A program made the translations under genes and the position numbers. A stretch of DNA of 33,885 nucleotides, taken from a virus. The notes below the pieces were generated by a model. That model was given only the letters and a program-made list of their open reading frames with translations, searched no databases and had not been told where the DNA came from. The DNA is taken from positions 1 to 33,885 of IMG/VR virus record IMGVR_UViG_3300033146_000678, one strand, 5' to 3'. This document shows positions 3,419 through 28,520 of this stretch, piece by piece (position 1 is the stretch's first letter; every line of letters starts with the position of its first letter).

Positions 3419-3426
3419 AGTTTACA

Positions 3427-4094: not shown

Positions 4095-4113
4095 TAAAGG
4101 AGAAATAAGTCTT

Positions 4114-6418: not shown

Positions 6419-6419
6419 T

Positions 6420-6729: not shown

Positions 6730-7082
6730 TGGTAGTTTCAACAATATTATTAACTAGTGATAATTTTTATATAAATGAAGATGGTTCTCTACCAATGAGA
6801 CCTGACTTTGATAAAACATTATTAACTGCTTTAGCTAAAAATAATATAGTATCTAATGAAGGTTATAATATGCTACCACCTAGTATAAAAAGTGTAGTAA
6901 AAACATCAAATGAACAACAAGAACCAGAATTTCCTATAACTATTAGAGAAATAAATGCTTTTACAGATTTATTAATAATTGTTCGTAGTAATGAATTAAT
7001 AATAGGAGGAAAACAATTTAGATTAGATAATTTTGAATTATTAGTAAAAGATAGAAAAATTGAATTATGGAGAAGAAAATGA
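6729..7082 (+). CDS. Shortened dihydrofolate-reductase-like protein (117 aa)
   Basis: The ATG at 6729 overlaps the previous stop by one base and replaces a TTG at 6717. The N-terminal half follows the DHFR layout: a first strand, then DGSLPMRPDFDKTLL, comparable to the region holding the catalytic acid, then NNIVSNEGYNMLPPSI, comparable to the strand and P-loop-like turn of the cofactor site. Near the end LIIGGKQFRL resembles the IGGxxxY motif of DHFR. At 117 residues it is clearly shorter than the usual 155-170, so active-site parts may be lost. It sits beside the thymidylate-synthase homologue, a common DHFR position. The assignment rests on pattern reading and is tentative. Confidence 0.5.
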   Translation: MVVSTILLTSDNFYINEDGSLPMRPDFDKTLLTALAKNNIVSNEGYNMLPPSIKSVVKTSNEQQEPEFPITIREINAFTDLLIIVRSNELIIGGKQFRLDNFELLVKDRKIELWRRK

Positions 7083-7381
7083 TAGATAAATTAATAACAA
7101 AAATTGCTTTATGGCATTATAATAGAAAGATTACTATTAATGGTAATTCATTAACACAAACAGTAAAGCTAGGTGAAGAATTTGGAGAATTATGCGCAGG
7201 TATTGTACGTAAAGATAAAGGTCTAATTAAAGATTCTTTGGGAGATATGGTAGTTGTTATGGTTGCAATTGCAGAACTAGAAGATCTAACATTAGGTGAT
7301 TGTATAGAAACTGCATATAATGAAATTAAGGATAGAAAAGGCCATCTTAATGAATTTGGTAACTTTATAAAAGATGAATAG
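7079..7381 (+). CDS. MazG-like nucleoside triphosphate pyrophosphohydrolase
   Basis: The enzyme is expected to cleave a (d)NTP to the monophosphate and pyrophosphate. The ATG at 7079 is chosen over 7067: it overlaps the preceding stop as ATGA and has TGGAG upstream. The MazG metal-binding pattern is visible as GEEFGELC (ExxE helix, about residues 32-39) and DSLGDMVVVM (ExxD-type second helix, about residues 54-63). At 100 residues it is a single-domain member of the all-alpha NTP-PPase superfamily. T4's dCTPase belongs to the same superfamily, so beside a dCMP-modifying enzyme a role in supplying dCMP or removing dCTP is attractive, but substrate specificity cannot be read. Confidence 0.85.
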   Translation: MIDKLITKIALWHYNRKITINGNSLTQTVKLGEEFGELCAGIVRKDKGLIKDSLGDMVVVMVAIAELEDLTLGDCIETAYNEIKDRKGHLNEFGNFIKDE

Positions 7382-7715
7382 TTCATTAGAAGAAACACTT
7401 TGGTCCTTAGTAGATGCTTTAAGTAAACGTACTAATTGTAAAAAACGTGCAGTAGGTTGTATTATTTATAATACAAAATTACAGGAAGTTGTAGCTAAAG
7501 GTTGGAATATTCATTTAGATGGTGTTTGTGATTGTTTAAATACAGAGGGTAAAAAAGGTACTGCTCAACATGCAGAAATTACTGCATTACATGATATGTT
7601 AGGACCTTATAAAAGAGAAGATCTAATTTTATTTGTAAATCATGCACCTTGTGCTAATTGTAAATCAGAAATAGAAACTGTAGTACATGAAGTTAGATAT
7701 AGATCACAAAAATAA
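7374..7715 (+). CDS. dCMP/cytidine deaminase-like protein (113 aa)
   Basis: Members of this family remove the amino group of cytosine nucleotides using a catalytic zinc. The zinc and proton-shuttle motif is present as HAE (residues 66-68) with PCANC (92-96), and the N-terminal half (KKRAVGCIIYN, then GWNIHLDG and a CDC stretch) resembles dCMP deaminases rather than tRNA deaminases. The protein is shorter than T4 or typical bacterial dCMP deaminases, with little after the PCxxC helix, so the C-terminal part is trimmed. It overlaps the MazG-like gene by 8 bases. With its neighbours it would influence the balance of dCMP and dUMP in the infected cell. Confidence 0.8.
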   Translation: MNSSLEETLWSLVDALSKRTNCKKRAVGCIIYNTKLQEVVAKGWNIHLDGVCDCLNTEGKKGTAQHAEITALHDMLGPYKREDLILFVNHAPCANCKSEIETVVHEVRYRSQK

Positions 7716-7724
7716 GGAGAAATA

Positions 7725-9899
7725 ATGTCAACAAAAGAAATGCTTAAAAATTATTTAGAAGAAAATGGAGCATTTACAGCTGATATTAATCCATTAGTAC
7801 TTAAAGCAGTAAGTGCTATTGCAGGAGAAGTACCTTATAGATTAAAATTAGCTATTGCTCTTAATGAACTGGCTGTTTTAACTTCACATTTACGTAAAAA
7901 TATAGAATTATATGATGGTACAATTGTACCTTGTAATATGATTACTTTTGCTTTAGCTAAATCAGGAGTAAGTAAAGATTCATCTATGAATATGGTTAGA
8001 AAAGCTTTAGCTGAAGGTTATTCTATTTTAGAAGACTACAGAAGAGATTTAGCTAGACATAATGCAGAAAAAGCTGCTATTTTAGATGGTAAAACTAAAG
8101 AAGACTGGATGGCTTATTATGAAAAACCTAGAGCTTTACATGCAGGTCTTGGAACTGTAGAAGGTATTATTCAACATTTTGCAGATTTAGAACAAAGTGA
8201 TATAGGAGCGGGTTATTTACAAACAAGTGAAATAGGTTCAGAATTATTAACTAATGGAAATATGACAGATATTGTTAAAACATTATCAATTGCATATGAT
8301 CTAGGAAAAATTCCAGCCAAGATTATTAAATCTAATGAACATCAAACAGCTAGTATTGATGTTTTACCTATAAGTGCTTTATTTTTTGGTTCAGAAGATG
8401 CTATTTTATATGATAACTCAATTAAAACCAAATTTAAAACAATGTTTAGTGTACAATTAGCACGTAGATCTATATTTAGTTTTACTCCAGAAATTATACC
8501 TCCTCAAAATTTAAGCTCAATTGAAGAATTACGAGAATATAGAAAACAAGAAAGAATTCGTACACTTGAAGCACAAAAAGAAGTATCTACTGTAATAAAA
8601 ACTATAATAGAAAATACAACTCAAGAACATTTAACTATATCTGAAGAAGCTCAAAGTTTATTTGATGTATATAAAGAATATAATCAATTAGAAGCAGATG
8701 ATATGAACGCTATTTATCCAATAACTAAATTATCAAGACGTCATAAACAATGGCTAGCTTTAAAATTATCAGGTAATTATGCAATTTTAGATGGTAATTT
8801 AGAAATTACAAAAGAAAATTATATTCAAGCAATTAATACAATTGAAATGTTTGCTAATGATCTTATGAATTTTGAAACTGAACTAATAAAAGAACCTTAT
8901 GAGATCTTTGCAGAATTTTGTAAACATAATGCAGTTAAGGGTAAATATACTATTAGTTTACACATTTTACGTAAACTTGGGTATATTCCTACTACGGGAA
9001 GAGCAAAAGCAGCTATAGAAGAACTAGTTCATTTAGCTGCAAGTTATGATAAAAACGGTATTTATACTGCTTGTGATGATGGTATTTGTTATGAAGAACA
9101 AATAAAAACTGACATTGCAGGTTTATCATATTTAGAAGTATTTGGAACTAAAGAAGAACGAGCTACTCAATGTGCTAAAGGTTTTGAGTTTTATGAAACA
9201 GATTTTGAAGAACTTGGAGTTATGTTAACAGGTGATTATGCTTATGCACCTTTTAGATTTAAAGATGGTATTCGTTCTAAAGATAATATTATAGGTGGTT
9301 GTAAATTTATAGCATTAGATATAGATAAATCAACTATTACAGATGAAGAATGTCATTTATTACTAGAAGGCATAAATCATCATATAGCTAGAACTTCTGA
9401 TAAAAACAATCAATTTAAATTTAGAGTACTAATAGAATTAGACTCTATTGTAGATATTGATAATAGACAATGGAGATACTTTATAGAAGAAGTTGGTTTA
9501 TATTTAGGTTTACAAGTAGATATTTTACCAAAATCACAAATTTATTTTGCATATGAAGGTAGGTCTGTTTTATCAGAATTAGAAGGTGAACCTTTAGAAA
9601 CACGTGAATTAATCATGAAATCTAATGAAAGGTTACTTAATAAACCTACACCTAAAAAATTAACTACAGTTCAACAAACAGCTTTATTAGATGATAAACT
9701 AGAAACATATGCTTTTGCATTTAATGCTGAAAATGGTGAAGGTAGTAGATCTTTAATAAGAGCTGCTTTATATGCAAAAGATTTAGGAGCCTCTACAAAA
9801 TATATGATTGAACTTGTAGAAGAAATTTCTAATTATTGGGTATCACCATTACCAGAAGATAGATTAGAAAGCATCAAAAACCAAATTTTAAGGTGGTAA
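7725..9899 (+). CDS. Large primase-like replication protein (DUF3987-like, AEP-like and PriCT-like domains)
   Basis: A 724-residue protein with three recognisable parts. Residues about 20-440 resemble the DUF3987 helicase-like region, but the P-loop is degenerate: around 77-87 it reads AKSGVSKDSS where GxxxxGK[ST] is expected. Residues about 510-620 look like an archaeo-eukaryotic-type primase core, with IALDID (Asp532 and Asp534), a KFRVLIEL strand, and VDILPKSQIYF. The His usually found just before the second strand is absent (SDKNN). The last 55 residues fit a PriCT-like helical tail ending in LPEDRLESIKNQILRW. N4-like phages encode a comparable large replication protein here. The ribosome binding site is AAGGAGAAATA. 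Overall class is fairly sure; catalytic activity is doubtful. Confidence 0.7.
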   Translation: MSTKEMLKNYLEENGAFTADINPLVLKAVSAIAGEVPYRLKLAIALNELAVLTSHLRKNIELYDGTIVPCNMITFALAKSGVSKDSSMNMVRKALAEGYSILEDYRRDLARHNAEKAAILDGKTKEDWMAYYEKPRALHAGLGTVEGIIQHFADLEQSDIGAGYLQTSEIGSELLTNGNMTDIVKTLSIAYDLGKIPAKIIKSNEHQTASIDVLPISALFFGSEDAILYDNSIKTKFKTMFSVQLARRSIFSFTPEIIPPQNLSSIEELREYRKQERIRTLEAQKEVSTVIKTIIENTTQEHLTISEEAQSLFDVYKEYNQLEADDMNAIYPITKLSRRHKQWLALKLSGNYAILDGNLEITKENYIQAINTIEMFANDLMNFETELIKEPYEIFAEFCKHNAVKGKYTISLHILRKLGYIPTTGRAKAAIEELVHLAASYDKNGIYTACDDGICYEEQIKTDIAGLSYLEVFGTKEERATQCAKGFEFYETDFEELGVMLTGDYAYAPFRFKDGIRSKDNIIGGCKFIALDIDKSTITDEECHLLLEGINHHIARTSDKNNQFKFRVLIELDSIVDIDNRQWRYFIEEVGLYLGLQVDILPKSQIYFAYEGRSVLSELEGEPLETRELIMKSNERLLNKPTPKKLTTVQQTALLDDKLETYAFAFNAENGEGSRSLIRAALYAKDLGASTKYMIELVEEISNYWVSPLPEDRLESIKNQILRW

Positions 9900-9900
9900 T

Positions 9901-10146
9901 ATGAGTAAAGAAGAACAATATTGCTTAGAACAGCAATTTAAACAAGCACAAGTTGCTGTACAGGCTCTTAATGACGAATCTATATGTGATATGCTTACTA
10001 AAGAAGAATTAGCTCATATGGCTGTTAAATCAACTACATTTGATAATGTACATTTAGTAGCCTATGAACTAGCTTTAACTAAAAAAGAAACAGCTAAAGA
10101 TCTATATAATGAACTTCAATATTATATAGATAAAGGATTAATTTAA
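9901..10146 (+). CDS. Small acidic hypothetical protein (81 aa)
   Basis: The gene starts one base after the primase-like gene, with AAGGTGG in the preceding codons serving as ribosome binding site. The product is helical, rich in Glu, Gln and Leu, and has no recognisable motif. Tight packing suggests cotranslation with the primase-like protein. Function unknown. Confidence 0.65.
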   Translation: MSKEEQYCLEQQFKQAQVAVQALNDESICDMLTKEELAHMAVKSTTFDNVHLVAYELALTKKETAKDLYNELQYYIDKGLI

Positions 10147-10149
10147 TAT

Positions 10150-10578
10150 ATGATAAACTGGAAATATAATGGAAAAGAAATAAAATCACATAATGATCTT
10201 TTACCAGAATGTACTAACTTTGTATATGAATTAACTTTTTCTGATAATACAAAGTATATTGGTAAAAAAACAGTTAGATCTATACGTAGATTAAAACCTA
10301 CAAAAGCACAATTAGCTATTCGTAAAAATTATGTAAGAAAAGAATTAAAAAATTCTCCTTTTTTAGATTATGAAGGTTCTAGTGAAGAAAATAAAGATAA
10401 AATACTTGTATCAAAAGAAATACTATACCAATGTTCAAATAAAAAGACTGCTACTTATATAGAAACAGCTCTTTTATTTGAAAATAATGTATTATTCTCA
10501 AAAACTTACAATAATAAAAATATATTAGGCACATTTTATGATAATAGCCTAGAAGGATTACTAGATGATAGAAATTAA
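10150..10578 (+). CDS. GIY-YIG-type putative endonuclease (142 aa)
   Basis: The N-terminal part contains FVYELTF, then KYIGKK about 10 residues later, matching the GIY and YIG strands of the GIY-YIG nuclease fold. A downstream YEGSS and a helix with ATYIETALLF (providing a conserved Glu) fit the phage subfamily. This subfamily is often described as Seg-like or as a putative structure-specific endonuclease. Such phage proteins may be free-standing homing endonucleases or may cut branched DNA during replication; the sequence does not decide. It overlaps the following gene by 14 bases, so it seems an integral operon member rather than a fresh insertion. Confidence 0.7.
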   Translation: MINWKYNGKEIKSHNDLLPECTNFVYELTFSDNTKYIGKKTVRSIRRLKPTKAQLAIRKNYVRKELKNSPFLDYEGSSEENKDKILVSKEILYQCSNKKTATYIETALLFENNVLFSKTYNNKNILGTFYDNSLEGLLDDRN

Positions 10579-11041
10579 ATTAACAGACACAGATGCTCTC
10601 GAGTATTTAGAACATAAAGATACAAATCTTGGATATGAACAGTTGTTAGCTAAATATAAAATTTTACAAGAAAATACTAAATTATTAGGCCAAAGATATG
10701 TAGATCTTCAAGCTAAATATAATGCTTTAACTTCTCAAGAGAATGTATCAGCTAGAGTTATAAATGATACAGAAAAAGCTAAAAATTTAACTCCTGATTT
10801 TGCAAAACCTACAAATAGTCAAAATACTACACCAACTAGATCAAATAGAAAATGGTCTGATATGGAATTAAGTATTATAAAATATGCAATATCAAGGCCA
10901 GAAACAGAGAATAATAGACAATTTGCTACTTTAGCTAAAAAATTAAATAGATCAAAAAATGCTATTAGAACAAAATTAGCAGAATTAGATATTTATGTAG
11001 AAAAAGGAATCATATATCCTAAAGCCCAGTTTAACCAATAA
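10565..11041 (+). CDS. Putative DNA-binding protein with coiled coil and Myb/HTH-like C terminus (158 aa)
   Basis: Residues about 20-55 have heptad-like spacing of Leu and Ile typical of a coiled coil. Residues about 60-92 are polar and probably a linker. Residues about 93-148 form three helices beginning RKWSDMELSIIKYA and ending NRSKNAIRTKLAEL, the pattern of a Myb/SANT or helix-turn-helix domain (a tryptophan followed by an acidic helix, then a recognition-like helix). It could be a sequence-specific regulator or a replication accessory. Its position directly before the exonuclease and polymerase genes favours a link to replication, but this is contextual. Confidence 0.6.
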   Translation: MIEIKLTDTDALEYLEHKDTNLGYEQLLAKYKILQENTKLLGQRYVDLQAKYNALTSQENVSARVINDTEKAKNLTPDFAKPTNSQNTTPTRSNRKWSDMELSIIKYAISRPETENNRQFATLAKKLNRSKNAIRTKLAELDIYVEKGIIYPKAQFNQ

Positions 11042-11051
11042 AGGTATTTAA

Positions 11052-11720
11052 ATGATAGACTATATTAATGTAAGTTACAAAGTATATACAACATATTATG
11101 GTATAGCTAAAAAGTTAAATACATTAACAAAGATTCCTATATTATCACTTGATTTAGAACTACAATCAATCTATTCTATTTCTGAAAGAGAAGAAGCTAA
11201 ATTATTATTAAAAAATAATATACAAAATCTAACTAGAGATGATATGTTATTATGTAAAGTAGTTGCTAGAGCGTCTGGTTTATCTCATCCAAGTATAACT
11301 AAAATAACTCATATAATTTTTGGTTTATCTGAATCAGAATCTATTATTTTTATCATTAATGATAATAAAAGTAGAGATTTAGTTTTAAATTGGGTTATTA
11401 ATTTCAAGGGGAAACTTTTAATACATAATACTGGATTTGACTTAAAAATAATTCATTATCATACTAATAATTTTCCCAAAGATTTTGAAGATACTCAATT
11501 ATTAGCAAAATGTTTAATTAACCATTGTGATAATTGGAAAGCTAATACAGGATTAAAAGAACTTATGAGTAGTTATTATGACCCTAAATGGCTTATGATT
11601 GAATCATATGATATTCAAAATTATAAAGATAAAGCGTTTCTTAGATATTCAGCTATAGATGGTGCTGCTACCTTCAAATTATGGGAGCAACTACAGGAGG
11701 CAATAAAAGATGAAAAATAA
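11052..11720 (+). CDS. Free-standing 3'-5' exonuclease (DnaQ-like), proofreading part of a split DNA polymerase
   Basis: The protein carries the three exonuclease motifs of the DEDDy class: Exo I LSLDLEL (Asp34, Glu36), Exo II HNTGFD (Asn126 to Asp130), and Exo III YSAID (Tyr199 to Asp203). In family A DNA polymerases this domain is normally fused in front of the polymerase domain. Here it is a separate 222-residue protein ending 33 bases before the polymerase gene. The expected role is editing of misincorporated nucleotides, presumably after association with the polymerase. The ribosome binding site AAAGG lies nine bases before the start. Family assignment is firm; the physical partnership is inferred. 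Confidence 0.88.
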   Translation: MIDYINVSYKVYTTYYGIAKKLNTLTKIPILSLDLELQSIYSISEREEAKLLLKNNIQNLTRDDMLLCKVVARASGLSHPSITKITHIIFGLSESESIIFIINDNKSRDLVLNWVINFKGKLLIHNTGFDLKIIHYHTNNFPKDFEDTQLLAKCLINHCDNWKANTGLKELMSSYYDPKWLMIESYDIQNYKDKAFLRYSAIDGAATFKLWEQLQEAIKDEK

Positions 11721-11757
11721 TTTTAAATACCAGGTTTATAAGGAGTCAATAGAATGA
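11710..11757 (+). other. Micro-ORF (15 codons) bridging the exonuclease and polymerase genes
   Basis: ATG at 11710 lies in the end of the exonuclease gene, and the frame ends in TGA at 11755-11757, overlapping the polymerase ATG as ATGA. It has no clear ribosome binding site of its own and could serve only translational coupling. Its first codons match the opening of the 56-residue gene that follows the polymerase at 13540. Whether it is translated is unknown. Confidence 0.25.
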
Positions 11758-13550
11758 GACCTTGGGAACTATTACCTCAACCTTTTCCTAAAGATAATGA
11801 TCCAGGACCGAACTTTTTTTATACTAATTTTGTTAAACCTTTATCTTTAGATTTTATTAGATTAATGAATGCAGGTATTCATATAGATCAAAAAGCAGTT
11901 AAAGAACTAGAAACTACATTAGATAATGTTTTAGCTAAAGTTGCTGAAACTGTAAAACAAAATAAAATTATTCAAGATTTTCAAGCAGATATATATCCTA
12001 AAAAATGGGCAGAATATTTAGCTTCAATGGAAACTAAAAAGAAAAATAAAAAACATTTTATAAAACCATATAATCCAGAAAATGCTTTACATAAAACATA
12101 TGCTTTTAATACTAGATTACTTCAATTAGGAAATTCTAATGATATAAAAACTAAATGGTCTGTAAAAGATATGAGATCTGCTAATGAATTTTATAATGAT
12201 CCAATTATGGTACAAATAATAGAAAAGAAGTTAAATCCTTCTGATTTATTAGCGATAGAAGCTATGAATACTTTAGCAATAGATAAAATGACTATTTATA
12301 ATAAAAGTCATTATAGTGATAAAATAGCAGCAAAAACGTATGAAGAAATTTTACCGCCTTTTAATCCTGGTAGTTCATTACAACTACGTAAATTATTTAG
12401 TTATTTAAAAATAGCTCCTTTAGCTTTTTCTAAAGATACTGGAGAACCTAGTTGGGGTAGAGATCAGATTGAAGAGGTTTTAACTACTGCAACTGATCCA
12501 ACTCTTATAGAATTATTGCAAGCATTTGTAGATTATTCTTATGGCAGTATTATTCGTACAAACTTTATCGAAGCTTTTCATAGTTTTACTATAGATGATG
12601 TTTTATATGGTAATTATAAAAATTTTGGAGCTAAGACATATAGACCTACTTCAAATAAGCCAAATTTGCTCAATATGCCTTCAACAGGTTCTATCTATGC
12701 AAAACCATTAAAGAAGGTATTTATAGCTCCAAAAGGATACTTAGTATGGTCTATAGATTATAGTGCTTTAGAAGACAGAGTTATAGCAAATTTATCACAA
12801 GATGAAAATAAATTAGCTATATTTACCGAAGGTTTAGATGGGCACTCATTAAGTGCAACTTATTATTTTCCAGATAGAGTATCTAAATTAATAGGTCCAT
12901 ATACAAATAATAAAGAAGCATCTATAAAATTAAAAACTCTTGTAGATGAGAAAAACAAAGAAGCTAAATCTGTACGTCAAGATGGTAAACCTGTAACATT
13001 CGGTATATCATATGGTGCATATCCACCTAAAATTGCTGCTACAATTAAATGCTCTATTACTGCAGCTACAGCTATATTTGATTCATATCATAATGAAATG
13101 TTCCCTGATATAACTAAAATGCGTAATATAGCTATGAAAACAGCTACTAAACAAGGATACCTACATTTAGGTTTAGGTTGTAGATTATATAGTGATAATA
13201 TAGAAACTAATAGTAGAACATTATTTAATGCTCTTTCTCAATTCTGGAGTATATTAACTCTTATATCTGTTAATGAATTACATTATCAAATAGATAAAGA
13301 AAATCTACAAAAAGATATAATTCCTAATTCTACAATTTATGATGCAATTTATGGGATTGTTAGAGAAGATCCCTCAATTATAAAATGGCTTAATGAAACT
13401 ATTTGTCCTATCATGGAAAAAGATTTCTTAGATGAGCAAATAGTAAAAAATGAGGTTAATCTAGAAGTGGGTAAATCTTGGGGAGATTTGGTTGAACTAC
13501 CACATAATGTTTCATTAGAATATATACAAAAGGTGATAGATGAAAAATAA
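11754..13550 (+). CDS. Family A DNA polymerase, polymerase domain only
   Basis: This is the replicative DNA polymerase without its exonuclease domain. Motif A is DYSALEDR (Asp335, Glu340, Arg342). Motif B is R408-x3-K412-x3-F416-x3-Y420-G, as in the O helix of Pol I. Motif C has the catalytic Asp530 but reads YDA instead of the usual HDE. A segment TNSRTLFNALSQFW follows as in Pol I enzymes. At 598 residues it is shorter than intact phage Pol I enzymes by about the size of the separate exonuclease. The start follows AAGGAGTCAATAGA. Function is secure; processivity partners are not visible. Confidence 0.92.
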   Translation: MRPWELLPQPFPKDNDPGPNFFYTNFVKPLSLDFIRLMNAGIHIDQKAVKELETTLDNVLAKVAETVKQNKIIQDFQADIYPKKWAEYLASMETKKKNKKHFIKPYNPENALHKTYAFNTRLLQLGNSNDIKTKWSVKDMRSANEFYNDPIMVQIIEKKLNPSDLLAIEAMNTLAIDKMTIYNKSHYSDKIAAKTYEEILPPFNPGSSLQLRKLFSYLKIAPLAFSKDTGEPSWGRDQIEEVLTTATDPTLIELLQAFVDYSYGSIIRTNFIEAFHSFTIDDVLYGNYKNFGAKTYRPTSNKPNLLNMPSTGSIYAKPLKKVFIAPKGYLVWSIDYSALEDRVIANLSQDENKLAIFTEGLDGHSLSATYYFPDRVSKLIGPYTNNKEASIKLKTLVDEKNKEAKSVRQDGKPVTFGISYGAYPPKIAATIKCSITAATAIFDSYHNEMFPDITKMRNIAMKTATKQGYLHLGLGCRLYSDNIETNSRTLFNALSQFWSILTLISVNELHYQIDKENLQKDIIPNSTIYDAIYGIVREDPSIIKWLNETICPIMEKDFLDEQIVKNEVNLEVGKSWGDLVELPHNVSLEYIQKVIDEK

Positions 13551-16818: not shown

Positions 16819-16985
16819 TTATCCTTAAAGCTGCTGGGTTTACATTACTTGTTGCAGTAGTTATTATTTTATTAATAGCTATTGTTTATGTGTCCGTCTG
16901 GGTAATCTTAGCTGTAGCTATAATTACACTAGGTTATCTAACTTACACAGCTTTAAATGCTAAAGCACAACTTTCAGTGCTTTAG
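16815..16985 (+). CDS. Small two-span membrane protein (56 aa)
   Basis: ATG at 16815 overlaps the preceding stop as ATGA, and TAG ends at 16985. Residues about 6-27 and 28-47 are almost wholly hydrophobic, with few polar residues between them, followed by a short polar tail (NAKAQLSVL). This fits a two-span membrane peptide. Coupling to the preceding membrane protein suggests they act together, for example as holin and antiholin. The stop overlaps the stop of the convergent virion RNA polymerase gene. Codon use and the coupled start support a real gene; the function is a guess. Confidence 0.6.
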   Translation: MIILKAAGFTLLVAVVIILLIAIVYVSVWVILAVAIITLGYLTYTALNAKAQLSVL

Positions 16986-19900
16986 TCATTTACTACTCCC
17001 ACAAATTGAAGTGCACTTGGTGTAACCATACGTTTAATATGTTCAAACATATCTTGATCCAGGTTTGCCCAACTTCTTACTAAAATACTTTGTTGTTGAA
17101 TATCATCAACATCAAAAAACATTTCTTGACCTAACACAGATAAAATTATGTTTAAAGGTTTGTTTTTAACTGTTTTAGTAATTGCTCTTTGAATTCTTTT
17201 CATATACTTCGTAAACATAAACAATCCCATATTATTTAAATATTCCTCAAAACTACTTGCAGGTTTTCCATAATTTACAAAAGCATCTAATACACTTTTT
17301 AATGCTTTATCTTTTTTAACTCCACGTTCTAATAATAGTTGATATTCTGTAGCTCTTGCTATAAAATCACTATATTGTGTTGCTTGTGTAACAAACTTAA
17401 AGTAACCAGTTCTTTCACTTAAATATAACCAGTTAGCACTTTGCTTAATAAACTCTGGTAACCCTTCCATTTTATCATTAATTTTTCTTACTAATTTATT
17501 ACTAGATTTATAATCTTGTTTATCTAGATCTTCTACAATAGCTTGATACATTCCAGCTTCCATTAATACATGCACAGGATTTAATTTTAATTCCTCAGTT
17601 AACATATTAATTTCTTTTTGTGTTTTCTGACCTACTAATCCAGAAATTCTTAATTTCTCTATTTTTCTTTGATCATTAATATATTTTGTAACATTACGCA
17701 TATTTTTTAATTGCATATTGGCTACTCTTATAGGACTGGCACCATTTACTACACTATACATAAAGTTAGAGATAATATTACCTATAAATACTGCAGGAGT
17801 CCTAATAATAATATCTACTTTACTTATACTAACTACTTGTTGCCATAATTGTTCTGCAACACGTATCCAACGTTTAATAATATCAGGAGTAATTCTATGA
17901 ATACCCATAAAATCTGTTATACTAGCATCTCTAAATCCAAAATAATTATGTAACATATCTCGTCTTACTGCAATATACCCATTTGAACTATCTTTAATAG
18001 CTTGCCTCATATGATGTGGTAAAATTTTATAAATTTCACTTACTTTTGCATTAGGGCTATTTTCTTCAATTCTAATATATAATTGATTATTCTTACCTAT
18101 AGATGATCCAGGAATATAGTTTTCTTTCATATCTGCTAATATAACATCTAATACAGCTTCATTTTGTTTATCAGTATCTACTTTATCTTGGATACTACCA
18201 ATAGTTCTACCTAATACTTCAGATACTTGTGTATCTTGTCCTAATAATTCTTTTTTATTATCTTTACCCATCATATATCTATAATCTGTAATATTTCCAT
18301 ATTGATCTAATATAGGAGATAATTTATTAAGAGGATCAATTGTATATTCACCTTTTTGCATAGCTTTTATTATAGTATGTGAAGCTTTTCTAATTCTTCT
18401 TATATCTCTAGCTGCAGTTCTTTTAGCTAACATATCATTAGACTTATAAGCAATATCTGTTAAAGATGTACCTTTTTTAACCATATCGGTCATTCTTGTA
18501 GCAGTTCTGTTATAACTTTGATTTACATACATTTTAGATCGATACAAAGCCATTTCTTTACTTGATTTATCTGCCGGGTCTTTTTTAAGAACTTTAACTA
18601 ACTCAAATCCTTGTGCTCTCATCTCCGCTTCATGAGATGTAGGCCTAACCCTTATGTCTATTGTATCATCAAATAACTCTTTACTGTATCCTTTAATAAT
18701 ATTTACTTCTGTTTCAAATATACGTTCTTTTGCTTCTTTTTTAGCACCTTCATTAAGGTTCATAATATATTCTATTGCACTATCTTTTTCTTTAATTAAA
18801 TTCGCAAGTATTTCATTTGAACTTTCAGAAGTATATTGTATACCTACTAAAGTAGCCAATTCATCTATTTTTTCTACTACTTTTGGATCTGGTTCAATTC
18901 TTCTATCACTTAATAAACCAGATGCAATATTATGTGCATTTAAATTTTGTACTGTTCCTGCAGTATGTGTAGCTAAATAATAACCTAATCCTGTAGCTTG
19001 ATTACTATTCCAATAAAAATTACTTTTATCTAATCTGGATAGTTGAGTTTTAACTAATTCTATTTGTTTATCTCTAGCATCTTTATCTGTAAGCATAGAT
19101 ACTATTTTTTTAGCTCCATATTTCTTATATATGGAACTTAAATCAGTATCGATAGCCGATAAGGTTATTGCTTCCTCTTCAGTCTTTGTAAGCTTTCTAT
19201 CAAACTGTTCTCTAATAGTTGATCTAGTTACATCAACAGTTAATTCTCTAACTCTATCAATACTATCACTCATCATTCCAAGTTCTTCAATAACACGTTC
19301 CAAAGCAGAAGCATCTTCTATGTCTCTTAATACATTTGGTATAAAACTTTCTGGTTGAATTCCAAAAGATGCAAATACAATTTCTCTAAAACCTTTCATA
19401 TCTTCTCTAAGTAAAAGTTTAGGTAAATATTTAGCTAAATAGGTAATCATTTCTAATCTAGTTGCATTCTTTTTAGGTCTTTTTGGTAAACTACCTGGAT
19501 CACCTTTTAATTTTTCTAGAACCATATCTATCATTTTAGCTAATGGTTTATTTCCTATTTTATCTAAAAGTTTAAAGAATTTTACACCTAACTCTTGTTC
19601 TTTCTGAACTTCATTTGCAGCAGTATTATTATATTCCATTAATTCAAAAGTTAATTGCATTAAACTATTATGTACAGTTTCTCCAATATTACTCCATTTA
19701 ACTTTACCCATAATAATATCTAACAAATGAGCAGCTAATTCGCTTAATCTTTGAAATAAACTTAGTTTTTCTGTAGAACTTTCTTCAACAATTATTTTTT
19801 TAAGTTTTGCAATCACTTGCGGATTTGTTAGACCATGTGCAATAAATTCATGTAAACTAGTTTTATTTTTAAAAATATAGTTCCATCTTTTTGTTGCAAT

Positions 19901-22900
19901 ATCTAGGTCTTTCTTTTTATCTAATGATTGCCTTGGCATTAAATCTTGTACAGTAATTACTTCTGCTGCTTTATCCCGTAGATATTGTAATTTTGTAACT
20001 AAAGTATTAATTTCTAAATTATTAGCTGCATTTTTAATAGCAAATTTTGTAATAGCGTGCATAATTTCATGGGCATATACTTCTGTAGCACTCATCTCAT
20101 TGGTTTTAATTAATGGTCTATCTGAAGTATTAATAACAATATTTGTGTCATTAATCATACCTAAATTTTTATCTGCTTCTTTATTTATATATAGATTTAA
20201 TTCAGGAATAAACTTAGGATCTATATTATCTAATAAACCTAGAACATATTTTTTATAAGGTTTACTTACATTTATATCATTAAGTTCATTTATAATATTT
20301 TTCATACCTTCTACAGACTTAAGAGCGTCTTTTTTAAGATTCTCAGGTTTAATAGCAGGATTGCTATTTTCTTCTGAACCTAAAGTTTCTTCTGGTTTAT
20401 AACTATATTTACTTCCAGGTGTAGCACTCATATGTACTACATCTATATTTTGATTAAATAACCAATTTCTTTCTGTTTGAATTAAATCATTTGTAGCAAT
20501 TAAGTTATCTAATAATTTTTGTTCTTCCTCAGTAGGACTTTCAAAAACTCTTTTTGCACTAACTAATAACTCTTGTATAATACTATATTGTTTATTTATA
20601 GCTATAACTTCTTTATTATAAGTTTTAACAATTTCTTTTGTATTTGTAAGAGGTGGTATAATTGCATCATGTATACCTAAGATTCCTTCATAATTTAAAA
20701 TGGTATTACCCATAATACTACCATCTATGTAGTGAATAGGTATAACAGAACCTGCTTTAATAGCTGCTTTTAAAGTTCTAATTCTAGAATTTACTGTTTT
20801 ACCTTTTTGATTTTCACCTTTTAAATTCTTTTTAAATGTAGAATTTAATTGTGTTTTTGCTACTTCATAGTCATACTCAGGTACTGCAGTAGTTGAATCA
20901 TTAATAGTTATACTATCTTGTAAACCTTCTGAATAAGGACCTTTAATCAAAGGGAATTTATTTCTTAAACTTTTTATAATTGCAAGTTTTTCTGCTTTAG
21001 TTGCACCTCTATTATTTTTTTGCTCTATCGCATCTTCTTCTTTAATATATTCTTCATTATATTTTATGAACATAACTTTAAAAGTTTCATTTATAAGCTC
21101 ATTTAATTCTATAAATTCACCAAACTCTTTATTTAATTGTTCTGTAGCTAAATAACCATATGTATAAGCACCTAGGTTACTTAGATATTTCATAAGATTT
21201 GGACCTTTTTTATTAGCCGTGATTCTATTAGGATCTGTAGTAATTAACTTTTCATGTAAATTAGGACCATAAACTTTATTTAGTTTAAAATACAGTTTTG
21301 CTACTTCAGGATTCATATTTTTACTTACCATTTGATCTATTAAACCGTTAGCAATAATTACACCTAGTCCCTTCTTAATAGAAGAAGCTCCTCTACTATA
21401 ATTAAATGTCATAAAAGGATCTTTAAATAATGTTCTTAATTCTTTAGATACTTCATTAGTATCTGTAGGTTTAGGTAAAGTTTTAACAAATTCTTTAAGA
21501 AACCCGAATTTATCATATGTATTGTTTAGCCAATCCCAAACTTTATCACCATCTGTTAATGTTTCATAATATTCTTTAGAAATATTTTCTTGTTTAACAT
21601 CTTTAGCTAAAGTTTCATAACTATCATCAAAATCTTTTTTAGATACTTCATCATTCATAGATTCTACAGACTCATTTACAAAGATACCTGTTTTTCTTAA
21701 CCAATTCATTACATTAGTTCTATCTCCTAATATAGGAAATTGTAAATTTTTTAAACCAAAACCAGATGTTACTGCGTCTGATTCCATACTTAAATTAGTA
21801 GTAAAAGTTTTATTACCTTTTTGGTATTCTTCTATAGCCCATATACCTTGTAAATAATGACTTAAATGTTCTACTTCTATACCATCTGTAAATTTATGAG
21901 TATCTAACATTTCTAGTAAATCTTTTGGTTTTTTCTTTAGTAGTAACTCCCCAAATTTTATATTTTCTGTAGTAGGTTTTTTATCAGTACTCATACCAAA
22001 AGCTTGAGCTAAAGCAAATTTAAATAAATCCATTTCTTCTTTATTATCTTTATGTAATAAAACTTCATGGTCTTTTGGAATAAATAAAAATCTATGTAAT
22101 TTATCTGTTTGAGGGTTAATTGTAGTACTATCTAACATATATCTACCATTTCTTGAATAAAACCAATCATAATACATAATATCTAATTCATTCTCATCTA
22201 TTGCTTCAAGACTTCTATCTATTTCTTCATTAACCGCTATTTTAGATAATCTAGTGTTATATGCCATATTTTTTAAATCTTCTTCAGAAGAGTAACCTAG
22301 ATGTTCTTTAGCAATATCCATATTATTAATAAGCCAATTAAATGTTTTATCTACTTTTACAAAAGGAGTGTGTCTTAAATGATCTAATACTTTTTTTGCA
22401 GTAGGAGATTGTTCTACTACTACATTATTACGAATAGACTTATCATTTGTAACTACTGGTGCTATATGTGGACCTTTTTTAAAGTTGTCTTCTATATTAG
22501 TAGCCTTTTGTATTTGTTCAAACTTATTTTTATGTTTTTCAAGAGTACTTTTTTTACCACCTAATGTTGAAAATTTGATAAATGATACTTGTTTATCTTT
22601 TCCTGAATTAGACGCTTTAGTTGTATCAGCCATAGTTTCACCAAAAACATGCTTATTATGTAAATAAAGTGATATATCATTAAATACAAGTTCTTTATCT
22701 GCTACACCCACTAATAAAGCTGATTGACCTAAATCTGCAACTAATTTAGCATAAACTTCTTCTGCTATATTTTTATTTTCTACTAAACCTAACATTTTTA
22801 AAACATGCTTACCAATATCATTAGCTGCATTTTTGGTGTATACACCAGCATTCTTAAAATACTCATATGCTTCTTCAGTAACATCACTTTCTTGGACACC

Positions 22901-25900
22901 TAAGATCCTAGCTACATCTTTTTTAGTCTTTGATCCAAGATTAACATTTCCTATACTTATATATTCAGATAATGCTGCAGACATAGCTAAGGCTACATTT
23001 TCATTTATTTGCCCTTCTTTATTAAATATAATAGCTCTGGCAGGTGCAGATACAATGTTATAGTTTTCTAATGGTATATTTCCATATTTAGAAATACCAT
23101 CTCTTACAGGAGCTAATACCTTTTTTAATTTAGCAGTAAATACAGCTGCTTCTTTTCGTAATTGTTTATTACCTAAAGCTTCTAAAGTTACACTTGCAAG
23201 TAAACTAGATATTCCTTTTTTTATAGATAATATAAATTTAGGATCTAAAGGTTGAGCATATTTCATAACAGGGTTATTTTTATTTTTACCTATGACTTGC
23301 ATAGACTCTTTACCAGCAGCTAAACTAGTTTTTAATATCTTTTCTGTTTCTGTTTTTTCTAAAGTATCATTAATAGTTTTTTGAGTTTCTTTATATTTTT
23401 CAGTAAGAATATTTAATTCTTCATCTGTTGCACCCATAGATTCTTCAAAAGCAATTTCTTCTTCAATATCTATAAGTTCTTGATTTAAATCACTAACTTC
23501 TTTTATTGCACTTTTTTCTGCATCTGTTTTTAACTCAAAATCTATTTCTTCTTTATATTGTTCATATAATTTTTGGTCTGCGGAAAGTAATTTTTTACCA
23601 CTTTCTAGCCTTTTAACAATTCTAGCAATGTGTTTAGCTTTTAATTCTTCTGCTGCTTTTTTCTCTGCTAATGTGCTAATTACGTATTGAGAATCTACAA
23701 ATCGCCCTGTACCTGTTTTTTCATTACCTTTATCATCTACTTCTGTATAACCTAAATTATGAAGTCTTTTAGTAATAGCCCATTCAAATTTATTTCTATT
23801 ACTTGCAATATTCATAAAAATTGTTTGTTTATCTTCTACTAATTTTTTAAGTTTTTTACCTAAGTTTATAGTACCATATTTACCTTTTGCAGGCTTTTTA
23901 GGTACTCTGAATTTATTTTGTGCACTATACGGATTTGACTCTACATCTAAATTTTTCTCAATTCCGTGTTCTTTATATACATTATTAATACCTTCAATAG
24001 TTCTTTTAATGTCTTCTTGAACATCATAGCTGGCTTTATTAATTTTATGGTCTTTAATATGTATATCCCAACCACCACCTTTTTTATATTTAACATGTAC
24101 TTTCTTACTTCTTTGTGTACCACTTTTTAAATTTGCCTCTACAGCTTCTACTGCTTTCTGAATTCTATCTAAACGATCAATTTGAGTATTTTCAAAGTAT
24201 TCTAGATTAGCTATAACACGTTCTATAGCTTCTTTATTTGCTTCAGGACCTTTATTTAAACGAGTTAGTGTTCTACTATAGGTTCTATATCCTTTGGCGC
24301 CTGTAGTAGCTTCTTTTTCAACCGTAGCACGATCTTTTATAATAGCAACATCATCAGTAGTTAAATTATAACGTTTAGCAAGTGTTGCCATATTATTAAA
24401 CAATGTTTTATTTTCTATATCTTCAGCATTAACAAATGTTTCTTCTATAAAGGCTTTAGTTTCTTCTTCTGAACCTAGAGTGAGTGAATCATCTACTTTT
24501 TCTGTAGATAACCTATGTGCTATTGCTTGTTTAATTTTTACTACTGCTTGTTGTGCATGTTTATCATTAGTAGTATTTATAGTATCTAATTTATCAATAA
24601 CTTTAGGAAGATCTTTTAGACTTGCTGTTTGAACTTCTTTTACAGTATTAACTAGGTGTTCGCGTACTTTATTTTGTTCTGCTGTTAAATTCTTTTCTAC
24701 TTTATTTTCTTTTTGGTGTTCTTTAATACTTTTTATTTTATTGTCTAATTTTTCTTTCGCACCTGAATTTGTCGCAGATTTTACAATTTCTACACCTCCA
24801 CTAATATGTGTACCTGCTATGAAACCTCCAGCAAAGTTCTGTGCAAGTTCTCTACCTAATGTTCCATCATATAATTCTTTTTCAGCTTTAGTTCCATATT
24901 TTTCAGTATAACTTTGTACTACTTGTTGAGCAACTTCCTCTAAACCTTCATATCCTGCTTTACCCACTACTTTTAATACTGTTTTTAATAAGGCTTTAAC
25001 TACAGTCCCAGCAGTTAATTTATCACTAGACCTAATAACTTTATTAACTAGTGAATTTACAAATTTGGTATTTCCTATTAACTCATCTACACCAACTTTT
25101 TCTAAGTACATTGCTACAGTATTACCAACTATCGCTTTTGTTCTATTTAAATAGCCTATATCTTTTTTATCTAAGTTCTTTTGTAATTCACCCATAGATT
25201 CATTTGATTGGCCTAAAGTAACAAGCGTAAATAATAAAGGATTTCTAGTAGCTATCATATAAGGAACAGATTCTATAAGTACTTCTACACCACCTTTAGT
25301 AAAAACACCTTCAACAATAGTTTTAGCTGTTTTAAGCATATCTCCACTGTCATAAGCTTCACCTACATTTTTCATTAATTGTTGACTAGCTGAATTATCA
25401 TAACCATATTCTTTAGCTGTTTTATATTTGTCTGCACCAATAAAATTCATATTTTTATCAAAGAGATCTTTTGTATAACGAAGACCCTTTCTCATAGCTA
25501 TATTAGCTTCTTCTTCTGATAGACCATTAAAACCTTTATATACAGTATCTTTTACTAGTCTTGTACTAGCATCTACAAAAGCATCACCTACTTCTGCAGC
25601 TGTTCTTCCTGCAGCAAATTGTAAAGCATCTACAAAGTTACCTGGATTATTATCACTTTGAGGACCTCCTGCTATTAAAGCATCTAATTCTTTTGAACCT
25701 ACATTTGAAGTGCTTTCAGTTTCTTGATTTGGGTATTTAGCAGCATGATATTTTTCTATGTCTTGTAAAGCTTGTTGCTCATTACCTAAAATAGGTTGTT
25801 GACTATTACCTTCTTCACCTGTAAGGTTCCCTTGTTTATCTATTTTAGAATAAGGTCCACCCAAAACTTCTAATAAACCTAGGTCTCTACCATAATTTTT

Positions 25901-26407
25901 ACTTTTGTCTACATTATTTAAATGTGTTTCTACAAGTAGCTGTGGACGTTCTTGATTCATTAAGTCTTCAGAGTATTTCTTTTGTTGCAGTCCTGCAGCA
26001 TAAACATCCTCTATAGTAGCAGGATGACCTAATTCTTGACTTAATTTAGCTTGTTGTTTCTTAATTCTTTCTACATTTTTAGGGTTATCAAACCATTCAG
26101 GAGATTTTGGTGTTTCATATGTATCTATACCTAAAGTTCTGGTTCTTCTGCCGTTTGAGTCATAAGTATCTCCATCTATAGTAACTAGTTTATTACTATC
26201 TACTACTTGTTGTGTAGGGTCTGTAAAACCTTTCTGAGCTAATCTTAATTTACTAGTTTTTTTATTTATTTTATTTGTTTTATCAGCAATTTTATTAGTT
26301 ACATTATTAATTTTTTGTGTAAGTTTTGTAGTGATCTCTGGAGAGAAATTCATTGTAATTGAATCTTCTGCGACTGTGGAAGGTAAAAATGATGATTGTA
26401 TGCTCAT
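16982..26407 (-). CDS. Giant virion-associated RNA polymerase (N4 gp50-type) with nuclease-like and zincin-like domains
   Basis: In N4 this protein is packaged in the particle, enters the host with the DNA and transcribes early genes. The catalytic motifs of T7/N4-type polymerases are all visible: NGR (Arg1422) followed by NPQ (1431-1433); motif A SMESDAVTSG (Asp1544); motif B R1658-x3-K1662-x3-M1666-x3-Y1670; motif C GIHDA (His1913, Asp1914). An N-terminal staphylococcal-nuclease-like region spans about 70-185 (DGDT, GIDTYET, YGR). Residues about 2090-2215 look like a zincin (HEIMH at 2113-2117, Glu2187). Hydrophobic stretches near 375-400 and 2860-2890 could help membrane passage. At 3141 residues it is close to N4's roughly 3500. 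A promoter candidate lies just upstream, and ATAAGG precedes the ATG. Confidence 0.92.
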   Translation of the reverse strand: MSIQSSFLPSTVAEDSITMNFSPEITTKLTQKINNVTNKIADKTNKINKKTSKLRLAQKGFTDPTQQVVDSNKLVTIDGDTYDSNGRRTRTLGIDTYETPKSPEWFDNPKNVERIKKQQAKLSQELGHPATIEDVYAAGLQQKKYSEDLMNQERPQLLVETHLNNVDKSKNYGRDLGLLEVLGGPYSKIDKQGNLTGEEGNSQQPILGNEQQALQDIEKYHAAKYPNQETESTSNVGSKELDALIAGGPQSDNNPGNFVDALQFAAGRTAAEVGDAFVDASTRLVKDTVYKGFNGLSEEEANIAMRKGLRYTKDLFDKNMNFIGADKYKTAKEYGYDNSASQQLMKNVGEAYDSGDMLKTAKTIVEGVFTKGGVEVLIESVPYMIATRNPLLFTLVTLGQSNESMGELQKNLDKKDIGYLNRTKAIVGNTVAMYLEKVGVDELIGNTKFVNSLVNKVIRSSDKLTAGTVVKALLKTVLKVVGKAGYEGLEEVAQQVVQSYTEKYGTKAEKELYDGTLGRELAQNFAGGFIAGTHISGGVEIVKSATNSGAKEKLDNKIKSIKEHQKENKVEKNLTAEQNKVREHLVNTVKEVQTASLKDLPKVIDKLDTINTTNDKHAQQAVVKIKQAIAHRLSTEKVDDSLTLGSEEETKAFIEETFVNAEDIENKTLFNNMATLAKRYNLTTDDVAIIKDRATVEKEATTGAKGYRTYSRTLTRLNKGPEANKEAIERVIANLEYFENTQIDRLDRIQKAVEAVEANLKSGTQRSKKVHVKYKKGGGWDIHIKDHKINKASYDVQEDIKRTIEGINNVYKEHGIEKNLDVESNPYSAQNKFRVPKKPAKGKYGTINLGKKLKKLVEDKQTIFMNIASNRNKFEWAITKRLHNLGYTEVDDKGNEKTGTGRFVDSQYVISTLAEKKAAEELKAKHIARIVKRLESGKKLLSADQKLYEQYKEEIDFELKTDAEKSAIKEVSDLNQELIDIEEEIAFEESMGATDEELNILTEKYKETQKTINDTLEKTETEKILKTSLAAGKESMQVIGKNKNNPVMKYAQPLDPKFILSIKKGISSLLASVTLEALGNKQLRKEAAVFTAKLKKVLAPVRDGISKYGNIPLENYNIVSAPARAIIFNKEGQINENVALAMSAALSEYISIGNVNLGSKTKKDVARILGVQESDVTEEAYEYFKNAGVYTKNAANDIGKHVLKMLGLVENKNIAEEVYAKLVADLGQSALLVGVADKELVFNDISLYLHNKHVFGETMADTTKASNSGKDKQVSFIKFSTLGGKKSTLEKHKNKFEQIQKATNIEDNFKKGPHIAPVVTNDKSIRNNVVVEQSPTAKKVLDHLRHTPFVKVDKTFNWLINNMDIAKEHLGYSSEEDLKNMAYNTRLSKIAVNEEIDRSLEAIDENELDIMYYDWFYSRNGRYMLDSTTINPQTDKLHRFLFIPKDHEVLLHKDNKEEMDLFKFALAQAFGMSTDKKPTTENIKFGELLLKKKPKDLLEMLDTHKFTDGIEVEHLSHYLQGIWAIEEYQKGNKTFTTNLSMESDAVTSGFGLKNLQFPILGDRTNVMNWLRKTGIFVNESVESMNDEVSKKDFDDSYETLAKDVKQENISKEYYETLTDGDKVWDWLNNTYDKFGFLKEFVKTLPKPTDTNEVSKELRTLFKDPFMTFNYSRGASSIKKGLGVIIANGLIDQMVSKNMNPEVAKLYFKLNKVYGPNLHEKLITTDPNRITANKKGPNLMKYLSNLGAYTYGYLATEQLNKEFGEFIELNELINETFKVMFIKYNEEYIKEEDAIEQKNNRGATKAEKLAIIKSLRNKFPLIKGPYSEGLQDSITINDSTTAVPEYDYEVAKTQLNSTFKKNLKGENQKGKTVNSRIRTLKAAIKAGSVIPIHYIDGSIMGNTILNYEGILGIHDAIIPPLTNTKEIVKTYNKEVIAINKQYSIIQELLVSAKRVFESPTEEEQKLLDNLIATNDLIQTERNWLFNQNIDVVHMSATPGSKYSYKPEETLGSEENSNPAIKPENLKKDALKSVEGMKNIINELNDINVSKPYKKYVLGLLDNIDPKFIPELNLYINKEADKNLGMINDTNIVINTSDRPLIKTNEMSATEVYAHEIMHAITKFAIKNAANNLEINTLVTKLQYLRDKAAEVITVQDLMPRQSLDKKKDLDIATKRWNYIFKNKTSLHEFIAHGLTNPQVIAKLKKIIVEESSTEKLSLFQRLSELAAHLLDIIMGKVKWSNIGETVHNSLMQLTFELMEYNNTAANEVQKEQELGVKFFKLLDKIGNKPLAKMIDMVLEKLKGDPGSLPKRPKKNATRLEMITYLAKYLPKLLLREDMKGFREIVFASFGIQPESFIPNVLRDIEDASALERVIEELGMMSDSIDRVRELTVDVTRSTIREQFDRKLTKTEEEAITLSAIDTDLSSIYKKYGAKKIVSMLTDKDARDKQIELVKTQLSRLDKSNFYWNSNQATGLGYYLATHTAGTVQNLNAHNIASGLLSDRRIEPDPKVVEKIDELATLVGIQYTSESSNEILANLIKEKDSAIEYIMNLNEGAKKEAKERIFETEVNIIKGYSKELFDDTIDIRVRPTSHEAEMRAQGFELVKVLKKDPADKSSKEMALYRSKMYVNQSYNRTATRMTDMVKKGTSLTDIAYKSNDMLAKRTAARDIRRIRKASHTIIKAMQKGEYTIDPLNKLSPILDQYGNITDYRYMMGKDNKKELLGQDTQVSEVLGRTIGSIQDKVDTDKQNEAVLDVILADMKENYIPGSSIGKNNQLYIRIEENSPNAKVSEIYKILPHHMRQAIKDSSNGYIAVRRDMLHNYFGFRDASITDFMGIHRITPDIIKRWIRVAEQLWQQVVSISKVDIIIRTPAVFIGNIISNFMYSVVNGASPIRVANMQLKNMRNVTKYINDQRKIEKLRISGLVGQKTQKEINMLTEELKLNPVHVLMEAGMYQAIVEDLDKQDYKSSNKLVRKINDKMEGLPEFIKQSANWLYLSERTGYFKFVTQATQYSDFIARATEYQLLLERGVKKDKALKSVLDAFVNYGKPASSFEEYLNNMGLFMFTKYMKRIQRAITKTVKNKPLNIILSVLGQEMFFDVDDIQQQSILVRSWANLDQDMFEHIKRMVTPSALQFVGVVND

Positions 26408-26436
26408 GATATATGCCTTATAATTTCATATAAGAC

Positions 26437-26450: not shown

Positions 26451-28520
26451 TTACTTGTAGTTGAACTTACCTGTGCTACGATACATTTCTATAAATTTTC
26501 TATGTGCTTCTCTTGCTTCATGTGCACCCATATTTTTCTTTCTTAATGCTTCTGCTCTTTTAACCATTTTTACTAGGTTCTTTTTATCTCTAGCAAGGGC
26601 TCTGAGAGTTGCAATTCCTACACCTGAAGCAATTAATGATGCTACAGTTAAAGTATTTGAAACAGCACCTACAGCGCTTTGTACTTGCTTATCTGCTTTA
26701 AGTTTTCTATATTCTGGGTCTCTTTGAGTAGCTAATTCATCATATGCTGTTTCTAAACCTAATCGTTCATTATCCGTTTTAGCTGTTTGAATTACTCTTT
26801 TATAATCATCTAATGATTTGACACCTTGTTTGCGCATTGCATCAATAATTTTAAGTTTTGTTTTAGATGTAACTGCTACAGGAGTATTATCAGAATTTGT
26901 ATAATTTAATACTTTTTGCAATTTAGCCCCAAATGAATTTACATTTTCATCTTTTGCATATAAATCACCAACAGTATCAGAACTTTTTAATTTTACTTCT
27001 GAGTCATTACCTTTTTTCTTTTGAGTAACCTCTTCTGTTTTTGTAGTATTCGTATCTGTTTTTGTAGTATTCATATCTGTTTTTAAAAGCTCTTGTAATC
27101 TACTTTTTACTTCAGGATTATCTTTACTAACCTTTTTAGATTTAATAGCATCTTGTAAAGTTTTTAAATTTGTACCATACTTTTTAACTGCCGCCTTAGA
27201 TGACAATTGCTTAGTATTTTTTGTTTTATCAGTTTTTGTTTTACTGACTTTACCTGTATCTGTATATCTAAGTTCATCTCTAGCACCAAAGTCTTTACCT
27301 AATACATCTGCAATAGTTTTTCTTTGTTTACCTACAGTCCTAGCTCTCATACGATCATTGAGCTTTTTAATCTCTTGTTGTTGAGCTTTAGAGGGCTGAT
27401 TTTTAGTAGTTTGTTGTACATAGTTACTACCACTTCCAGTATTACCATATTTACCTGTACCATTAGGGTGTTTCTTTAAATATTTAGCAGCTTCAATTAA
27501 GTTTACTTCTTTATTACCCCCTACAACACCTGAGCCTTTAACACTACTTCTAAGAGCTTCATAGATTGCAGTATTACTAAAAGCAGTTCCATCATCTTTT
27601 TTAAGATTCTGTAAGGTATCAGCACTTTTCTTTATAGAATCTAAGTCATCTGTATAAATTGCATCATATCTTTCTAACAAACCATGTTTTGTTTTGATTT
27701 CTTTAATACCAGAATCTTCAAAAACTTGTTCTGCCATACTACCTTCTGCAGGATCAAAATAATTTTTCTTTTTACTTTTTGTAGTAGAACTACCTTTAGA
27801 CCCAGTACCTATAGTTGTAGAGCCTAGGCCTTTATAAATATTATCTATACGTTCTTGGTCTATTTTATTTAATGCTTTTGTTCTTTCATCTATATCAGGT
27901 ATGTCATATTGAGACATTTCTGCTCTTGCTTGTACTCTAGCAGTTTCTGCATCTATACCTTTAGACATTAATGCTTTAGCTAATCTATTTTCTGCATCTT
28001 TAGGACTAGTTACAGTATCTAAGAAATCAGGAGTCTTTTTATACTGTTCTGTTAAAGCATCATTAAGGGTTCTTAACTTTTGTTCATGTAATAATGTTAA
28101 GTCTGCACCTGCTTTTTCTAAACCTTCCAGTTTAGGATCTACAATAGGTAAACCATCATCATCATAATAAGTAGTATTTTTCTTAATATCATAACCTAAG
28201 TTTTTTAGCTGAGCCATATCGTTTTCATAATTACTGTTTAGTTTTTCATAAGCACTATTTATTTTTTCTTGGGTTTCTAAACCTAATTGTACACCACTTT
28301 GACCATTAGCATCTCTAGAACTATTTATATTATTTAATACATTACTTATAGTTTGACGTTTTGCAACTGGTGTAAAATTTTCTAATGATTGTGAATAAGT
28401 AGCTTGTTTTTGTAAAGCTCTTTGTTCATTATTTAATAATGTTTCACGTAAACCTCTAGTGACGTCTTGATATTGTGGCATATTCAGTAACTGAATATTT
28501 TGATTAGTACCTAAACTCAT
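26451..28520 (-). CDS. Probable internal or ejected virion protein (689 aa)
   Basis: The protein is rich in Lys, Asp, Thr, Gln and Asn, with long helical and low-complexity regions (a KTDTNTTKT repeat near residue 485) and a hydrophobic alanine/valine/isoleucine stretch near 625-655, followed by a basic helix. It lies between the capsid genes and the virion polymerase, where N4 and its relatives encode proteins that leave the particle with the polymerase. The composition (polar, helical, one membrane-active patch) fits such an ejection protein. No enzymatic motif is seen. The gene starts 10 bases after the upstream gene ends. Confidence 0.6.
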   Translation of the reverse strand: MSLGTNQNIQLLNMPQYQDVTRGLRETLLNNEQRALQKQATYSQSLENFTPVAKRQTISNVLNNINSSRDANGQSGVQLGLETQEKINSAYEKLNSNYENDMAQLKNLGYDIKKNTTYYDDDGLPIVDPKLEGLEKAGADLTLLHEQKLRTLNDALTEQYKKTPDFLDTVTSPKDAENRLAKALMSKGIDAETARVQARAEMSQYDIPDIDERTKALNKIDQERIDNIYKGLGSTTIGTGSKGSSTTKSKKKNYFDPAEGSMAEQVFEDSGIKEIKTKHGLLERYDAIYTDDLDSIKKSADTLQNLKKDDGTAFSNTAIYEALRSSVKGSGVVGGNKEVNLIEAAKYLKKHPNGTGKYGNTGSGSNYVQQTTKNQPSKAQQQEIKKLNDRMRARTVGKQRKTIADVLGKDFGARDELRYTDTGKVSKTKTDKTKNTKQLSSKAAVKKYGTNLKTLQDAIKSKKVSKDNPEVKSRLQELLKTDMNTTKTDTNTTKTEEVTQKKKGNDSEVKLKSSDTVGDLYAKDENVNSFGAKLQKVLNYTNSDNTPVAVTSKTKLKIIDAMRKQGVKSLDDYKRVIQTAKTDNERLGLETAYDELATQRDPEYRKLKADKQVQSAVGAVSNTLTVASLIASGVGIATLRALARDKKNLVKMVKRAEALRKKNMGAHEAREAHRKFIEMYRSTGKFNYK
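27034..27080 (-). repeat. Tandem 21-base coding repeat
   Basis: A 21-base unit is present twice (27034-27054 and 27055-27075, one mismatch), followed by the first part of a third. On the minus strand it encodes repeated MNTTKTD / TNTTKTE. It lies in a low-complexity part of the 689-residue protein and probably arose by replication slippage. Confidence 0.7.

Follow-up and report, generated by a model that had tools for sequence, protein, structure and literature searches.

A putative staphylococcal-nuclease-like module at the N terminus of an N4-type virion RNA polymerase

The virion RNA polymerase (vRNAP) of phage N4 is packaged close to the portal and leaves the virion before the DNA does (PMC4496689, PMC12633501), and transcription from its promoters needs supercoils (PMC4496689). 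Its N-terminal domain is helical and membrane-binding (PMC12633501), and this N-terminal part is the least understood piece of the N4 ejection machine. Polyvalent proteins resembling N4 vRNAP, with ART and peptidase domains, have also been described (PMC5512222); that paper makes no mention of SNase or staphylococcal nuclease. More broadly, no report of an SNase domain in a vRNAP was found in the literature among the open-licence papers searched. Here, we describe a vRNAP in which such a domain probably occupies the N terminus.

The locus and its vRNAP gene

The stretch of DNA analysed (the window) is an IMG/VR virus record of 33,885 bases from an uncultivated phage whose genes are N4-like: helicase, primase, DNA polymerase, and exonuclease genes lie on the plus strand, while the vRNAP, a tape-measure-annotated protein, and the major head protein are encoded on the minus strand. 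The vRNAP gene (16982..26407, minus strand) is a single ORF of 3141 amino acids, with an AAGG at 26416-26419 (minus strand) 8 nt ahead of its ATG. It belongs to the vRNAP family by its match to phrog_2206 (E=2e-253), and its tblastn matches are Schitoviridae and AD45-type vRNAPs. The RNA polymerase module (20390..23026, minus strand; residues ~1128-2006) was delimited by blastp to the PT15-A5, JA-1, and PG11 vRNAPs, with the N4 blastp match covering residues 1313-1598 only. Between the polymerase and the C-terminal region lies an HExxH domain, with the zincin-type motif HEIMH at residues 2113-2117 (20057..20071, minus strand); the same motif is present in the N4 C1 domain (PMC12633501). A conserved helical part of the N-terminal region (24548..25315, minus strand; residues ~365-620) lies downstream of the swapped module discussed below, and the BLASTP match to the related locus L001 begins at residue 365. 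The gene just upstream of the vRNAP (26451..28520, minus strand; 689 aa) lies where N4 encodes its ejection protein gp51; a family match was looked for and not found.

In most close relatives, the vRNAP is encoded as two ORFs, broken at one site between the polymerase module and the C-terminal part, where the ORFs overlap slightly or leave a small gap (L001:9251-9257, L002:9521-9527, L003:9051-9059; also L036, L038, L040, L041, L043, and L072); the overlap is 7 nt in both L001 and L002. The window carries both parts in one ORF. The AD45 record labels its own break a "potential frameshift"; since the split recurs across relatives, it suggests a true two-chain vRNAP.

The N-terminal domain: anatomy, homology, and predicted fold

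The candidate domain (25853..26200, minus strand; residues ~70-185) is supported by profile comparison with phage SNases and by homologous domains in three divergent vRNAPs from other metagenomic viruses (L037, L002, and L044). The preliminary description had named six residues matching the catalytic set of staphylococcal nuclease in order, and translation of 16982-26407 (minus strand) bears this out: D78, D80, R90, D95, E98, and R174 are all in place, in the order of Asp19, Asp21, Arg35, Asp40, Glu43, and Arg87. The N-terminal region reads ...LVTIDGDTYDSNGRRTRTLGIDTYETP...GLQQKKYSEDLMNQ...NYGRDLGLLEV.... Strands 1-3 would form the predicted active-site block, TIDGDT...RTLGIDTYET (26108..26191, minus strand), which holds D78 through E98. 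The longer middle insert noted earlier could be placed as well: it amounts to ~31 residues between SNase strand 3 and helix 1, where the gap pattern in an alignment with two true SNases marks an inserted helical hairpin at approximately residues 107-138 (25994..26089, minus strand). Residues 112-158 (25934-26074, minus strand), assigned to this hairpin, also give a sub-threshold Pfam match to Sigma70_r3 (E=0.003-0.04). Helix 1 begins with GLQQKK (25952..25993, minus strand), which aligns with GEESK of SNases through an invariant Gly and Lys (G139 and K143), and strands 4-5 carry NYGRDL (25868..25945, minus strand), in which R174 corresponds to SNase Arg87 and both the Arg and the Leu are invariant.

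Among the three relatives, the L037 domain was matched to that of the window by phmmer (E=1e-20) and the L002 domain by BLASTP (E=5e-9); the L044 vRNAP, 26% identical to that of the window, was spotted by the motif TDADTL...IRIQG...LDSFET...QFGRTLATL. In the four-member alignment, both Asp of DxDT, the Arg, and the Glu are invariant columns; the Asp40 position is Asn in one of the four (L037). The YGR segment reads NYGRDLG in L037 too and QFGRTLA in L044, with its placement in L002 being uncertain. When the vRNAP domains are aligned with two true SNases (L080 and L095), D, D, R, E, G, K, R, and L remain invariant. Neither 20,000 shuffled versions of residues 1-365 nor 3,000 of the whole protein contained the motif D[GA]D[TS]...R...[DN]..E...[YF]GR.[LIV], counts that are a rough guide only; because this motif was composed after inspection of the sequence, the evidence from relatives outweighs it. 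A DNA pattern for GIDTYExP returned 31 loci, all unrelated.

Homology at the profile level was assessed with hhalign, using the domain cores of the window, L037, and L044 as query and a profile of nine phage SNases as target. The comparison gave a probability of 93.5% (P=2.3e-7, score 45.7), with the aligned part being mostly the strand 1-3 block. Shuffling the query columns 400 times yielded scores that averaged 11.3 and peaked at 20.4, which places the observed score ~15 standard deviations above the shuffles. The match persists for L037 and L044 without the window (P=6.8e-5) and for the window alone (1.7e-4). Cross-controls stayed at background, i.e., a score of 10.4 for the vRNAP domain profile against GIY-YIG and 13.0 for the N-terminal domain of sister vRNAPs against SNase. 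Detection depends on such profile-profile comparison, as a plain SNase HMM run on the lone window sequence reaches only E=0.03, about what the best shuffle gives, and the curated Pfam SNase cut-off (PF00565) was not reached by the window, L002, L037, or L044. By its sequence, the window domain is thus not a PF00565 member by the Pfam threshold and is best called SNase-like at the superfamily level.

Structure prediction, which the preliminary description had proposed as a check for an OB-type SNase fold, gave divided answers. Given only the four vRNAP domains, AlphaFold2 (AF2) produced an uninformative model (pLDDT 46.9); with two true SNases in the alignment, it returned a model of pLDDT 68.5 and pTM 0.66, in which the active-site block and inserted hairpin had block means of 75-92 (the hairpin helices at pLDDT ~90) and the last third, including the part matching SNase helices 2-3, had low values. 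Foldseek with this model found nothing better than E=1, its top matches being noise and SNase being absent among the 50 best. VIA-align re-ranking of Foldseek's 478 candidates placed SNase structures in all 50 listed rows, the best match reaching Z 6.9 over 100 residues at 4.1 Å, a Z within the range that the tool calls common. The AF2 model is therefore compatible with an SNase barrel, yet it depends on the SNase rows in its alignment. For the SNase-like identity first proposed from the sequence, the profile-profile match, the catalytic residues in relatives, and the SNase-first structural ranking speak in favour, while the Pfam result, the SNase-free AF2 model, and the Asn for Asp40 in L037 speak against.

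Module exchange among related vRNAPs

Related vRNAP loci were gathered with the conserved C-terminal part of the vRNAP, in overlapping sets of 2, then 16, then 28; tblastn with this part matched 468 phage records. Searches with the N-terminal domain were far sparser: tblastn of the window, L002, L037, and L044 domains against 50,697 phage records gave no usable relative, scans of viral contigs with the domain itself returned only copies of the same loci and no further relatives, and a genome-contig scan with the vRNAP domain alignment found none. A genome-contig scan with the L080 SNase had a Psychrobacillus SNase as its sole match.

The domain was looked for in N4 gp50 and eight other reference vRNAPs and is absent from all nine, which argues from sequence that it is an accessory module, optional and exchangeable. 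The survey of related vRNAPs that the preliminary description had proposed finds the domain in the three relatives above, all of which keep D, D, R, and E, and not in these references. Exchange is seen in two loci from the same sample: L001 and L002 are 92% identical over ~1,500 residues, from residues 616 and 579 on, respectively, and their N-termini are unrelated. A tree of vRNAP C-terminal parts, on which the branch to L044 is long, requires the SNase-like label to change four times or more, a minimum imposed by well-supported branches.

A different module, marked by the conserved signature R..Y...K.G...RY...E..H...EY, is present in most of the close relatives. This alternative was located at L043:2298-3000 and L003:1867-2610, as well as in L036, L038, L040, L041, L001, and L072, with R, Y, K.G, RY, LP, E, H, R, G, and EY as its invariants. 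A by-eye reading of this sister domain as GIY-YIG was set aside, with neither hhalign nor Pfam giving support; the score of the sister domain (L001, L003, L036, L043) against T5orf172-type GIY-YIG was 11.6, within the shuffle range. In L037, a lysozyme-like domain (L037:1487-1945, vRNAP residues ~238-390; phrog_27932, E=2e-32) follows the SNase-like one, so that this N-terminus holds two enzyme-like domains; by eye, the N-termini of VBP47 and L072 are also lysozyme-like.

In another N4-like genome, a separate SNase gene of 251 aa (L080:1147-1902; Pfam E=1.3e-20) lies directly upstream of the vRNAP and encodes a ~100-aa low-complexity leader, its reading frame overlapping the stop codon of the gene before it. 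In the related L079, the corresponding gap is too small to hold an SNase gene (ORFs 866-2008 and 2297-12412). This neighbour arrangement could represent the raw material of an SNase-vRNAP fusion, as one case and not as proof of descent.

Proposed function and comparison with known systems

We consider it probable, with some reserve, that residues ~70-185 form a divergent, exchangeable SNase-like (OB-fold) nuclease domain with a helical hairpin insert, ejected with the vRNAP and most likely cleaving host DNA or RNA at the onset of infection. What this study contributes to that reading, at the level of sequence, is SNase homology in profile comparisons, retention of the catalytic residues, the location of the domain, and repeated module exchange; catalysis, Ca2+ dependence, and a host target are inferred. 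By analogy with N4, the window vRNAP would travel in the head and enter ahead of the DNA, taking the SNase-like module with it into the cell envelope or cytoplasm, where the module would most likely cut host DNA or RNA as infection begins. SNases require Ca2+ far above cytosolic levels; such dependence would silence the nuclease in the head and in a cytosol low in calcium, and would make the envelope the likelier site of action. Two considerations speak for a host target: an optional, exchanged module suits a host-facing effector better than a core DNA-entry step, and nicks in the incoming DNA would relax the supercoils needed by vRNAP promoters.

The best of the alternatives, which we regard as rather unlikely, is that the SNase fold has decayed and now binds nucleic acid or protein without cleaving, e.g., to retain the leading end of the DNA or the promoter DNA while ejection proceeds. 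SNase-like repeats elsewhere, as in Tudor-SN, have lost catalysis, and the Asn at the Asp40 position in L037, along with the rapid divergence implied by the missing Pfam match, would fit a similar loss here. A nicking nuclease would, moreover, work against the supercoils that N4 vRNAP promoters need (PMC4496689). However, all four members retain D, D, R, and E in a domain that has otherwise largely diverged, a pattern more in keeping with selection on catalysis than with selection for binding only. An action on the phage's own DNA or transcripts (leading-end trimming or early RNA turnover) was among the proposals of the preliminary description and would suit a domain joined to the polymerase that is first to encounter the leading DNA; we deem it improbable, as N4 and most vRNAPs do without the module and close relatives swap it, so that a core DNA-entry step is unlikely to depend on it, and as nicking would counter supercoiling. 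That the SNase motif is a coincidence in an unrelated, mostly helical phage domain would accord with the lack of Pfam and Foldseek matches and the uninformative first AF2 model, but is very improbable given the distance of the profile-profile score from its column shuffles and the conserved residues recurring in the same order in divergent proteins, helix-1 GxxxK and YGR included.

The host-directed nuclease reading lends itself to a broader proposal, which we offer tentatively and hold to be possible but less likely than not: in a group of N4-type vRNAPs, the N-terminus may be a slot for interchangeable effector domains, one of them a calcium-gated SNase-like nuclease, inert in the head and switched on in the envelope or cytoplasm, with the polymerase thus delivering its own first strike on host nucleic acid. 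If true, a polymerase-borne nuclease would join genome entry, early transcription, and host attack in one molecule and would raise the question of how a packaged nuclease is stopped from cutting the phage genome. Module exchange between near-identical polymerases would mark a site of arms-race evolution.

Compared to SNases (PF00565, phage thermonucleases, and YokF-type nucleases), the window domain shares the order and identity of the catalytic residues, the strand 1-3 block, the helix-1 G...K motif, and YGR, and differs in its ~31-residue helical insert, the Y for P in the DTPE motif, and its fusion to a vRNAP. The vRNAP itself resembles N4 gp50 and those of Schitoviridae in its polymerase module, HExxH domain, and C-terminal region, with its gene likewise adjoining ejection-protein and head genes as in N4; N4 gp50, in contrast, is without the SNase-like domain. 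The closest cultured relatives are the Alteromonas phage AD45-type vRNAPs (L003/L039), which share 29-30% identity over the polymerase and C-terminal parts, but differ in having another N-terminal module and a vRNAP in two ORFs. The window vRNAP may also resemble the polyvalent proteins of phages and conjugative elements (PMC5512222), as a giant and, by analogy, probably ejected protein with swappable accessory domains of putative enzymatic function.
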